Assembly (NCBI GenBank): GCA_947493955.1
Contig: CANLSQ010000001.1
Location: 1,426,001 to 1,490,000, forward strand
From: an uncultured Sphingomonadaceae bacterium
GTDB lineage: Bacteria > Pseudomonadota > Alphaproteobacteria > Sphingomonadales > Sphingomonadaceae
DNA: 64,000 nucleotides
Direction: 5' to 3'
The position numbers and the translations under genes are program-made. Below the pieces are notes generated by a model. That model saw only the letters and a program-made list of their open reading frames with translations, had not been told where the DNA came from and did no database searches. Below, in pieces: positions 9,539 to 24,192 of this stretch (position 1 is its first letter; every line of letters begins with the position of its first letter).

Positions 9539-10576
9539 TTAAGCCTTTTCGTCGGCTTTCTTGTCGTCGTCCTTTTTAGCGGCGGCTTTTTTAGCCGGCG
9601 CCTTTTTGGCCGGAGCCTTTTTCGCAGCCGCTTTCTTGGCTGGCGCTTTTTTGGCAGCTGACTTTTTGGCCGGTGCCTTTGTCTCTTCAGCAGGCTTTTC
9701 TTCTGCTGGTTTTTCTTCCGCGGCAGGAGCCTCTTCAGCTGCAGGAGCTTCAGCGGGAGCCGCTTCGACAATCTCTGCAACCGCAGCCGCTTCACCAGCA
9801 GCCATTGCACTTGCATTGGCTTCGCTGGACACAATCGCTTCTACCGGTGGAGCAACTTCTGCACCCAGGTCTTTGCCTGATGCAACAGCCGCTTCCTGAC
9901 CGCCCTTGGTTGCAGCTGCAGCCACGGACTCACAGTAAAGACGAATGGCGCGTGCCGCATCATCATTGCCGGGAACCGGGAATGCGATGTTGCTCGGGTC
10001 GACGTTGGAATCCAAGATCGCAACAACCGGAATGCCCAGAACATTGGCTTCCTTGATGGCGAGCTCTTCCTTGTTCGCGTCGATTACGAACATTACGTCG
10101 GGAATACCGCCCATATCACGGATACCGCCCAAAGACAGTTCCAGCTTGTCGCGCTCACGCGTCATCTGCAGAGCTTCTTTCTTGGTGAAGCCAGCCATGT
10201 CACCGGAAAGCTGCTCTTCAAGCGTCTTCATCCGGCGAATCGAGTTGGAAATGGTTTTCCAGTTGGTCAGCATGCCGCCGAGCCAGCGATGGTTGACGAA
10301 ATGCTGGCCGCTCATCCGCGCTGCTTCTGCGATAGGCTCTTGCGCTTGGCGCTTGGTACCAACGAAAAGAACCTTGCCGCCGGAAGACACTGCATTGGCA
10401 ATGAAATCAAGCGCGCGAGCGAACAAGGGCACGCTCTGTGAAAGGTCAAGAATATGGACGCCGTTGCGGGCACCGAAGATATAAGGTTTCATCTTCGGGT
10501 TCCAGCGGTGGGTCTGGTGGCCGAAATGCGATCCGGCTTCAATCAATTGCTGTAGGGTGACGACAGGGGCCGCCAT
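9539..10576 (-). CDS. rpsB: 30S ribosomal protein S2 with long C-terminal tail
   Basis: S2 core at residues 1 to about 230: [23 protein letters not shown] at the N-terminus, then [25 protein letters not shown] and [19 protein letters not shown]. After the core come roughly 110 extra residues: an Ala/Glu-rich acidic stretch (about 265-299), then seven perfect five-residue repeats of the form A-x-A-K-K (301-335), ending [10 protein letters not shown]. The normal family length is 230-260 aa; here it is 345. The ATG at 10576 is chosen over an upstream in-frame start at 10669 because it begins [11 protein letters not shown] and has an AAGGAG ribosome site. First gene of the rpsB-tsf unit. Confidence 0.97.
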
Positions 10577-10764
10577 AGTACTTCTCCTTATCCGGTTATG
10601 CCTCTGGAAAGCTGAGAACCTCAAACGACCTGAAAGGCCGGTATCAGCACCGGTATGAGCGCTTTCCATGTGGAATGAGCGTGCCGTTAGAGCGATGCGC
10701 GGGGAAATGCAAGCCTAAACTTCGGAAACGCGGCAAGACAGGACTGATTGGCCTGCCTTCATCG

Positions 10765-12881: not shown

Positions 12882-13105
12882 TCACTCTCTTTCTTTCGAT
12901 AGTCCGATCATAGAGGGGGTGAAACGGAAGACCATTATGTAATTGGATAAGGTCGGCCCTTTGAAAACAGACCAAGCCTGACCATTGCACAACTTGACAG
13001 GGCGTGAGCTGCCCCGGCTCCGAGATTTCCGCATTAGCAGCAGGATGTAACCTTTTCGCCGCTTGATGCGTATTTCAGGCATGTTTCAGATAATATTTGA
13101 CAAGA

Positions 13106-13142
13106 GAACATATTTAGAACATTAAAGGTTCATAGAAAGAAC
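13106..13142 (+). promoter_or_regulatory. LexA-type operator array (four half-sites, 11-bp spacing)
   Basis: GAAC at 13106-13109, GAAC at 13117-13120, GTTC at 13128-13131 and GAAC at 13139-13142, each separated by exactly 7 nt. The first pair is the direct repeat GAAC-N7-GAAC, which reads GTTC-N7-GTTC on the other strand, the established alphaproteobacterial SOS box. A perfect TTGACA (13097-13102) lies just upstream, so the array would cover the promoter and leader of the small gene at 13158. The same box type occurs in front of recA in this window. Confidence 0.72.
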
Positions 13143-13157
13143 ATACGGGATTTTGAC

Positions 13158-13400
13158 ATGCTGACATTCGCTATTGCCACCTTTTTTGCCCTCGCCCTGA
13201 TTGGCGCAGTTCTGACCATCGGGATGATGTTTCATACTTATCAGGACAAGATAATGGCGGTGATAGTTGCGGAACTTGGCGAGAAGAACGTCAGTGCACC
13301 TGCTATATCGCAGCGCAATCGTAGCTCAGCGGACAAGGCTTACCGGACTAGCCCGCACCGCCGGACTGTTCGGACAGTTCCTTTGCGCGCTGCCGCTTGA
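13158..13400 (+). CDS. Small single-span membrane protein, putative SOS-regulated
   Basis: An 80-codon gene not matched to any family I recognise. Residues about 3-26 form a hydrophobic helix (FAIATFFALALIGAVLTIG), followed by HTYQDKIMAVIVAELGEKN and a basic Ser/Arg-rich tail. The ATG has a CGGGA ribosome site 7 nt upstream. It follows the LexA-type array at 13106-13142 and a TTGACA box. The 3' end overlaps the convergent pssA gene by 53 bp, and the last 25 residues may simply reflect that overlap. A short membrane protein under LexA control resembles in architecture the SOS division inhibitors SidA of Caulobacter or YneA of Bacillus, but no sequence similarity is claimed. Confidence 0.55.
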   Translation: MLTFAIATFFALALIGAVLTIGMMFHTYQDKIMAVIVAELGEKNVSAPAISQRNRSSADKAYRTSPHRRTVRTVPLRAAA

Positions 13401-14142
13401 CCTTTGCGTAGCTACGGATGCTGAACGGAATCAGAATGATATAGCCGATACTGATCACACTTAATGTTATCCACGGATTGTTGATAAGCGCGACACCGAG
13501 AAGAGCGAAGCCTGCAAGAGCCTCCAGACGGATGTTCTTGCGTAATCGGAGTGAGGACCAACTATAGGTGGCTGTGTTGGAAATCATGAGGAAGGCGATG
13601 AGCACAATCCATGGCCCAACCACAAAATAGTGACGGAATAGTTCCTGATCAGTAATCACCCAGAGATACAAGGGCAGCATGGCAAGACCGGCAGCAACTG
13701 GAGCGGGAATACCCGTTAAAAACCCAGCCGACTTGTGCGGCTGATCTTCGTCATCAATATGAGCGTTAAACCGGGCTAGCCGCAAGGCGCAACCCACGGC
13801 CATAGTCAGGGATATCACCCAGCCAAATTGCGGCATATGCTGCAGTGACCAAAAAAACATGACAAGCGCCGGCGTAACGCCAAAAGCGATTACGTCAGAA
13901 AGCGAATCGAGTTCCGCACCAAAACGGCTTTGCGCATTCAACAACCGGGCGATGCGCCCGTCCAGTCCGTCCAATATGCCGGCCAGGACAACGGCGCCGG
14001 CAGCCAGTACCCAATTTTCCAGAAATGCAAAGCGCACACCGCTGAGACCGACGCAAAGCGCCAATGCCGTCACCGCGTTCGGTGTAAAGGCTCTCAGCGA
14101 TATACCCCGTTCCGGTCGTTTGGTGTGCTCATTATCTGCCAT
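13348..14142 (-). CDS. pssA: CDP-diacylglycerol-serine O-phosphatidyltransferase
   Basis: Transfers phosphatidate from CDP-diacylglycerol to serine. The CDP-alcohol phosphotransferase signature D-G-x2-A-R-x8-G-x3-D-x3-D is present as DGLDGRIARLLN...GAELDSLSD. The 264-aa product has about eight hydrophobic segments and a basic C-terminus. It follows psd by 35 nt, so the two steps serine to phosphatidylserine to phosphatidylethanolamine are one transcription unit. The 3' end overlaps the convergent small gene at 13158-13400. Confidence 0.95.
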   Translation of the reverse strand: MADNEHTKRPERGISLRAFTPNAVTALALCVGLSGVRFAFLENWVLAAGAVVLAGILDGLDGRIARLLNAQSRFGAELDSLSDVIAFGVTPALVMFFWSLQHMPQFGWVISLTMAVGCALRLARFNAHIDDEDQPHKSAGFLTGIPAPVAAGLAMLPLYLWVITDQELFRHYFVVGPWIVLIAFLMISNTATYSWSSLRLRKNIRLEALAGFALLGVALINNPWITLSVISIGYIILIPFSIRSYAKVKRQRAKELSEQSGGAG

Positions 14143-14177: not shown

Positions 14178-14912
14178 TCATTGACCAATGCCTTCAATTT
14201 CTTTCACTTGCCCGATTTCAGCAATAATCGTTTCTCCGGCAATGGTCCGCTGTCCCAAAACCACATTGGGTATTGTACCCTTCGGCAGGTAAACATCGAC
14301 GCGGCTGCCAAAACGAATCAGGCCAATACGCTGCCCGACCGCGACAAAATCGCCCTCTTTCACAAAGGACATGATCCGCCGTGCGACCAGTCCGGCAATC
14401 TGGGTAAAGCCAACCTTCAGACCATCATTGCGTTCGACCATGAAATGCTGGCGTTCGTTTTCGTCACTGGCTTTATCAAGATCAGCGTTTAGGAACTTGC
14501 CTGATATATAGGCCTGTCGTTTCACGGTACCTTCAATGGGTGTGCGGTTGATATGCACATCAAAGACGCTCATGAAAATTGAGACGCGGATCAGTTCCTC
14601 GTCGCCCAGGCCGCCCTCGCCCTGCAGTTCCAGCGGTGGCACGACCGGCATGATCAAATTGACCAACCCGTCCGCGGGCGCAACAATATATTTGTCGTCC
14701 AGAGGCGTGACCCGTTTCGGATCACGGAAAAAGGCCAGCACCCAGATGGTAACGCCAGCCATGGGCCATGCCAGTGTTTCCCATGCGAAAAAAGCAAAGA
14801 CTGCAGTAATGGCCGCCGAGATGACAGCAAATTTGCGGCCTTCGGGGTGGACCGGTGGAAAAGACCATTTGGCTTCGCCAAGGCCTTTGTTTGAATATTT
14901 TTCTATCGCCAT
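14178..14912 (-). CDS. psd: Phosphatidylserine decarboxylase proenzyme (short type)
   Basis: Decarboxylates phosphatidylserine to phosphatidylethanolamine. It is made as a proenzyme that self-cleaves at a Gly-Ser bond to create the pyruvoyl group; the expected site is the GS in [13 protein letters not shown] near the C-terminus. An N-terminal hydrophobic pair ([28 protein letters not shown]) anchors it in the membrane, followed by the [16 protein letters not shown] motif. The length of 244 aa fits the short alphaproteobacterial class. An AAGGAA ribosome site precedes the ATG. It leads the psd-pssA unit and is divergent from icd. Confidence 0.95.
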
Positions 14913-23010: not shown

Positions 23011-24102
23011 TTATTCGGCATCAGCTTCAGCGTCGCTATCGGCCCCGACAGGCCCAGTCATCATCTCATCGGCAATTTCTTCTTCATTGCCGCGAATTTG
23101 ATTTTCCAGCTTGGCCATCATTTCCGGATTCTCAAGCAGGAAGCGTTTCGAATTTTCGCGCCCCTGCCCAATACGAACGGAATCATAGGAGAACCATGCC
23201 CCGGATTTTTCGACCACACCGGCTTTGACGCCAAGATCGATAATCTCGCCGACTTTGGAAATGCCCTGCCCGTACATGATGTCAAATTCCACTTGCTTGA
23301 ACGGTGGTGCGACCTTGTTCTTGACCACTTTCACACGGGTCGAGTTACCGACAATATCATCCCGTTCCTTGATCTGCCCGGTGCGGCGAATGTCGAGACG
23401 AACCGACGCATAGAATTTCAGTGCATTACCACCCGATGTGGTTTCGGGGTTGCCGTACATCACGCCAATTTTCATGCGCACCTGGTTGATGAAGATCACC
23501 ATGCATTTGGAACGGCTGATCGAACCGGTCAACTTACGCAGTGCCTGACTCATCAAACGCGCCTGAAGGCCAACATGGGCATCACCCATTTCACCCTCAA
23601 TCTCAGCGCGTGGAACCAATGCAGCAACCGAATCGACAACCAGAACATCGATCGCGTTTGAGCGAACCAACGTATCGGTAATCTCAAGCGCCTGCTCCCC
23701 TGTGTCGGGCTGGGATATGATGAGTTCGTCAATGTCCACACCAAGTGCATTGGCATAAACAGGATCCAAGGCATGTTCGGCATCGACAAAGGCTGCCGTG
23801 CCGCCTGCTTTTTGCGCTTCGGCGATGACATGCAACGCCAATGTGGTTTTACCGGAACTTTCCGGACCATAAATTTCGATTACACGACCCTTTGGCAATC
23901 CCCCGATGCCAAGTGCGATATCCAGCCCCAAGGAACCGGTAGAGATCGACTCGACCTCCATCGCCTTGCGGGAACCCAGCTTCATGGCCGAGCCTTTACC
24001 AAAAGCGCGATCAATCTGCGCCAACGCGGCGTCAAGCGCCTTTTGTCTGTCTGATGAGTTCAATTGATTATCCGATTCTACGACTTTTAAATTGCCGGCC
24101 AT
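23011..24102 (-). CDS. recA: Recombinase RecA
   Basis: DNA strand-exchange ATPase and activator of LexA self-cleavage. The 363-aa product has the Walker A motif GPESSGKT at 79-86, loop L1/L2 regions ([25 protein letters not shown], then [33 protein letters not shown] read in sections) and an acidic C-terminus ([11 protein letters not shown]). The start at 24102 ([10 protein letters not shown]) is chosen over 24144; GGGGACAGG lies upstream. The promoter carries a LexA box (24178-24192) and an AT-rich element. It is transcribed separately from cckA, with a strong terminator after it. Confidence 0.99.
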
Positions 24103-24177
24103 TTGCCTGTCCCCTTCGCTAAATGCTTGTACACTATCAATCAATGATGGATATGATGTACCGCATTTGTTCTACTA

Positions 24178-24192
24178 GAACAAGAGTGGAAC
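24178..24192 (-). promoter_or_regulatory. LexA (SOS) box of recA
   Basis: On the minus strand GTTC-CACTCTT-GTTC, an exact match to the alphaproteobacterial GTTC-N7-GTTC consensus, located 76 nt upstream of the recA start. The second GTTC is within TTGTTC, a plausible -35 box, with TACATC 17 nt further as a weak -10. A third half-site in inverted orientation (24169-24172) creates a GTTC-N5-GAAC palindrome beside it. Confidence 0.85.

Follow-up and report, generated by a model that had tools for sequence, protein, structure and literature searches.

The SulA family (PF03846) scores over its cut-off in none of 119 genomes of Sphingomonadaceae, with one match below the cut-off (G303), which fits the proposal of the initial annotation that sphingomonads do not use SulA. 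Among the matches listed in the open-access literature, titles and beginnings of abstracts name no SOS division inhibitor gene for sphingomonads. The locus described here contains a small gene that is a concrete candidate and, by analogy with known systems, probably encodes an undescribed factor that holds back division once DNA has been damaged.

The window, i.e., the whole stretch of DNA that was analysed, is 64 kb long. The initial annotation described four LexA half-sites at 11-bp spacing, a TTGACA at 13097 and an 80-codon ORF at 13158. All of these elements are indeed found at those positions: the sequence reads GAAC at 13106, 13117 and 13139 and GTTC at 13128, in 11-bp steps. The features of the locus are as follows.

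9539-10669, minus strand: rpsB (ribosomal protein S2), given as the longest ORF, the left border of the slot; PF00318 at G000:C1:1435902-1436546
13097-13102, plus strand: -35-like element TTGACA, read from the sequence and retained in relatives
13106-13120, plus strand: LexA (SOS) box GAACATATTTAGAAC, made of half-sites 1 and 2, within the -35/-10 spacer
13120-13125, plus strand: possible -10 element CATTAA, overlapping half-site 2, a tentative sequence reading
13128-13131, plus strand: half-site 3, GTTC, inverted; kept by 25 of the 30 relatives once the shifted locus is read in register
13139-13142, plus strand: half-site 4, GAAC; in all 30 relatives with the gene
13158-13400, plus strand: gene of an 80-aa single-span membrane protein with an ATG start, supported by ORF reading, orthologues and Ka/Ks
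13348-14142, minus strand: pssA (CDP-alcohol phosphatidyltransferase; PF01066, PF08009), convergent to the small gene
14178-14912, minus strand: psd (phosphatidylserine decarboxylase; PF02666), syntenic context

The candidate -10 element lies 17 bases 3' of TTGACA, and GGGA at 13147-13150, 7 bases 5' of the ATG, makes a weak ribosome site. GTTC-N7-GTTC is described as the LexA/SOS operator of alphaproteobacteria (PMC7987155); in the window, the box at 13106-13120 is placed between TTGACA and the ORF, as is expected of an operator of this regulon. The GAACN7GAAC pair by itself is unremarkable: the window contains three such pairs vs 1.9 expected, and the whole genome contains 85 vs 80 for the reversed control. 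Since the pair is not unusual by count, the evidence must rest on conservation. We also built a positional weight matrix (PWM) from one site per genus, using 71 other genera. Among the 85 matches in its own genome the window box ranks 11th, the recA box 18th and the lexA box 20th; some of the sites ranked higher have no known SOS gene alongside.

The same type of box stands 5' of lexA, recA, uvrA and mmcB. The genome has one LexA match, with GAACGAATACGGAAC just 5' of lexA. In the window, recA occupies 23257-24192 on the minus strand (PF00154 match at 23257-24042); its SOS box is at 24178-24192 and is adjoined by an extra GAAC half-site. The boxes of uvrA and mmcB are near the survey consensus. 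Boxes were also found beside genes read as imuA and radA from translation alone; in Pfam, the candidate imuA has no family, and AAA/zinc-ribbon is among the eight families of the candidate radA. A published transcriptome of Sphingopyxis includes lexA, recA, radA and imuAB among the induced SOS genes (PMC6472365). Three further boxes of high score were recorded. The top PWM score of the 85 belongs to a box at about position 168439 of locus L045 (G000:C3:167100-169700), where a 182-codon ORF with hydrophobic stretches begins 107 bp from the box and an opposite-strand ORF of 323 codons spans it. The other two boxes are 5' of a 250-aa protein with a weak, below-cut-off match to DUF4261 (L032, G000:C1:915389) and 5' of a radical-SAM protein (L033, G000:C1:1206622).

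Conservation was examined within the genus and then across the family. A tblastn search found the ORF in 30 of the 60 genomes searched, all 30 from the same genus, so that 30 of its 32 genomes, own genome counted, contain it. The two congeners without a match (G004 and G022) are 67% and 73% complete. A plasmid collection was searched as well and gave no match. The box at 13106-13120 is present in all 30 relatives with the gene. TTGACA and half-sites 1, 2 and 4 are kept in the 11/22-bp register in 30 of 30 gene-bearing congeners, while half-site 3 is lost in five (L013, L014, L018, L021, L027). Counted at a fixed distance from the ATG, the four half-sites occur in 29, 29, 24 and 29 of the 30 genomes, L024 being shifted by one base. 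A conserved element, TGTAACC-TTTTC...GCGTATTT, lies at 13046-13075 of the window, about 85-112 bp 5' of the start codon, and is seen at the same place in most of the nearest relatives (L001-L012).

The coding sequence appears to be under purifying selection. Ka/Ks is 0-0.28 in six close pairs (codons 1-46, outside the pssA overlap), and the means for two wider groups are 0.17 and 0.25 (finite in 35 of 36 and 52 of 66 pairs, respectively). Judging from the sequences, the gene is real and looks translated, and it is very probable that a protein is made from it.

Of the 298 family genomes searched with a profile of the genus protein, only 25 gave a match, and 19 of these belong to other genera. 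Given this reach, protein similarity alone was dropped as a test of the spread in favour of synteny with pssA. Among the 19 finds outside the genus, an exact box is present up to 400 bp 5' of the gene in 17 and a box with one mismatch in two (L087 and L097); all of them except L086 are at the 3' terminus of pssA, which makes 18. A strict TTGACA-N4 box pattern, which led to genus g27, missed the own genome, where the spacing is N3. PF08009, the C-terminal domain of PssA, has a match in 207 of the 219 genomes of the family that were searched, from 94 of 96 genera. We surveyed 84 of the 207 PF08009 loci, representing 74 genera: 30 first loci and 54 more, one per genus, from the places listed. The survey left out the own genus, took pssA ends from the PF08009 coordinates and ignored protein similarity.

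An exact GAACN7GAAC directed towards pssA and no more than 1 kb 3' of it was found in 79 of the 84 loci, which represent 71 of the 74 genera. The control patterns GTTCN7GTTC and CAAGN7CAAG were each found in two genera, and the control spacers N4, N5, N6, N8, N9 and N10 in 8, 10, 6, 2, 5 and 5 genera. The five loci without an exact box are L100, L103, L117, L137 and L157, and the last three of them have boxes with one mismatch. In 76 of 84 loci (69 of 74 genera), the box is followed by an ORF of 45-140 codons whose N-terminus is hydrophobic. This makes 76 of the 79 boxed loci vs 173 of 2169 random positions (8%). The eight loci without a qualifying ORF are the five without an exact box and L105, L145 and L148. 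TTGACN ends 3-6 bases 5' of the first GAAC in 57 of the 76 loci, and TTGAC was not found within 30 bases in 13. At this distance, bound LexA would cover the -35/-10 spacer.

The proposal that LexA controls a conserved single-span membrane protein thus gains strong comparative support, with the box 5' of all 30 orthologues in congeners and, by synteny, in 71 of 74 genera. By this comparison, LexA control of the small gene is very likely. The initial annotation also suggested cooperative binding of LexA to the four half-sites; LexA may bind in this way, but half-site 3 is lost in five of 30 congeners, and 10 of the 84 survey loci carry a pair of exact boxes within 40 bp.

In nearly every sampled genus of Sphingomonadaceae, the gene occupies one conserved slot of the chromosome, where the 3' end of pssA lies and where rpsB is often found as well. 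In 59 of the 84 loci, a motif like the start of rpsB was seen on the left-hand side of pssA. The likely start of rpsB in the window is 10576, as indicated by MAAPVVT; in many other genera rpsB is divergent and stands directly before the small gene. Beyond the family, the slot is hardly ever filled. Of 30 genomes from other families of the order, 20 have PF08009, and one of these 20 loci has a box near pssA; there, at about position 593 of the reverse-complemented locus L195, an SOS box is accompanied by a 52-aa single-TM ORF. In 30 class-level rpsB loci (138 genomes with rpsB), no box followed by a TM ORF was found within flanks of up to 1.5 kb, and a box-like match without a TM ORF was seen in two. 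Caulobacter sidA is presumably near rpsB, by locus numbers, but positional homology with it found no support in these 30 loci and flanks. A broad profile (A2) gave six matches in 240 class genomes, two of them from this family and four weak ones with no box, and hence no clear relative in the class beyond Sphingomonadaceae.

The window protein has a transmembrane segment at about residues 1-25, a helix extending to about residue 44, a basic tail predicted to be disordered and the C-terminus RAAA. AlphaFold2, run with 16 sequences, predicts one helix (residues 2-44) and nothing structured beyond it, with a mean pLDDT of 67.9. The survey proteins from 76 loci are mostly 70-98 aa long (range 52-117). 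One N-terminal TM segment was predicted in all 32 proteins tested, so they share the short single-TM form of inhibitors of the SidA/YneA/SosA kind. In all 32, the net charge is not positive before the TM segment and is +1 to +11 after it. According to the positive-inside rule, the positively charged flank is on the cytoplasmic side; by this charge pattern, the basic tail is probably in the cytoplasm. Pfam gave no family for the window protein. Ten diverse members likewise have no Pfam match and none above the NCBIfam cut-off, two of them having weak sub-threshold NCBIfam matches.

The small gene and pssA overlap in antisense, which is unusual. In the window, the final 53 bases of the small gene also belong to pssA; of the 76 survey loci, 71 show an overlap between this gene and the 3' end of pssA. 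The C-terminus is Ala-Ala in 63 of 76 survey proteins, 41 of which end in AAA; the tmRNA tag of the own genome, ANDNEALAVAA, also ends in AA. In most loci, the AAA-stop lies opposite the PssA codons for [VI][KR]RQR or a variant. Selection on these conserved codons could therefore maintain AAA, and the ending may be a by-product of the overlap. Among the 12 proteins judged not to be opposite the PssA motif, five end in AA, including those of the non-overlapping loci g45 and g122. As a background, 83 TM ORFs with an ATG start were taken from random positions, and 12 of them also end in AA. This background lowered our confidence in a C-terminal Ala-Ala degron from even to slightly below even, and the antisense lock on pssA together with these random ORFs weakens AAA as proof of a degron. 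In genus g58 (L099, L104 and L113; genomes of about 2 Mb), boxes are found near pssA and the three proteins are without an AA end; L099 and L104 have no pssA overlap.

From the gene, its box, its slot, the charge pattern and the frequent Ala-Ala end, all seen in the comparison, we infer a course of events with LexA binding, damage induction, a divisome target and a degron. In an undamaged cell, LexA would sit on GAACN7GAAC between -35 and -10 and keep the promoter shut. After DNA damage, RecA-driven cleavage of LexA would open the promoter, and the N-terminal helix would insert the protein in the inner membrane. There it would most likely delay septation via the membrane proteins of the divisome (FtsW/FtsI/FtsN), a step modelled on SidA and DidA, and perhaps it is afterwards removed by ClpXP-type proteolysis through its C-terminal Ala-Ala. 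We give this whole account, a LexA-repressed gene of a small inner-membrane protein that most likely delays septation, a probability of about 0.6. The part of it that makes the protein a division inhibitor, argued by analogy, has somewhat better than an even chance.

Several other readings have to be weighed against it. TisB/DinQ-type peptides are about 27-30 aa long and toxic at the membrane; TisB has a LexA box and one hydrophobic helix. The product of the small gene could act in the same way, as an SOS-induced membrane-active peptide whose effect is a lower proton-motive force or a slower metabolism, with the divisome left untouched. Its fast sequence divergence and the LexA box with a single hydrophobic helix, as reported for DinQ (PMC3567139), agree with this, but the proteins in question mostly have 70-98 aa (52-117) and a long basic tail, whereas those peptides are shorter; such a role is unlikely. 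An origin by chance, with a spurious ORF next to a random array of motifs, might be suggested by the genome-wide count of GAACN7GAAC, which hardly exceeds that of its reversed control (85 and 80), but it is refuted by the comparative data, i.e., the conservation seen across 30 congeners and in 71 of 74 genera, together with the Ka/Ks values, and is next to impossible.

The neighbourhood of pssA invites the remaining explanations. An envelope or lipid effector that works in the membrane during SOS, on PssA, on Psd or on the synthesis of phospholipids, would account for the constant proximity of pssA, and psd is in the window too. The genes are, however, convergent, with no co-transcription, and 59 of 84 loci also have the rpsB-like start nearby, so the slot may be a mere ancestral position; we consider such an effector improbable. 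The antisense overlap in 71 of 76 loci would suit a locus that works chiefly through its RNA: a convergent transcript, induced in the SOS response, would lower pssA expression and thereby phosphatidylserine/PE synthesis, the protein being less important. Against this stand the Ka/Ks of 0-0.28 in six close pairs, the hydrophobic N-terminus in 69 of 74 genera and the protein retained in the non-overlapping g45 and g122 loci, and a mainly RNA function is very improbable. Both activities could also be combined in a two-way SOS locus, where the protein halts septation and the convergent transcript into pssA curbs phosphatidylserine/PE synthesis, and where the shared base pairs would code twice, for a ClpXP-type Ala-Ala degron on one strand and, on the opposite one, for the basic KVKRQR tail of PssA. 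This is quite unlikely; if true, it would mean that most of the family has kept such a locus even as the protein sequence drifted almost beyond recognition.

A LexA-controlled delay of septation stays our preferred reading. The candidate can be traced by operator and synteny in 71 of 74 genera, where the protein profile reached 25 of 298 genomes; an SOS effector is thus recognisable by its fixed operator and slot despite fast protein divergence.

The protein resembles a known kind of system in its presumed working, which does not imply homology to any member. SulA of E. coli, a soluble FtsZ inhibitor, shares the proposed role of an SOS brake on division, whereas the sphingomonad protein spans the membrane and has no Pfam match. 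TisB and DinQ are likewise LexA-controlled single-TM peptides but are much shorter and under antisense RNA control. YneA of Bacillus has an extracellular LysM part, and SosA of Staphylococcus has a single span. Both are small, membrane-bound, SOS-induced division inhibitors; they belong to Gram-positive families, unlike the sphingomonad protein with its basic and probably cytoplasmic tail. DidA of Caulobacter crescentus has 71 aa and one TM helix, is damage-induced and binds FtsN (PMC4211646). It is thus close to the sphingomonad protein in size and in having one TM segment, but it is SOS-independent (DriD), whereas the sphingomonad gene has a LexA box. SidA of C. crescentus is a LexA-controlled small inner-membrane protein that blocks division through FtsW (PMC4211646). 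Compared by description, SidA is 29 aa long, while the sphingomonad protein mostly has 70-98 aa, its tail is basic and it usually ends in AA; the two have in common LexA-type control, a small inner-membrane product and an alphaproteobacterial host.
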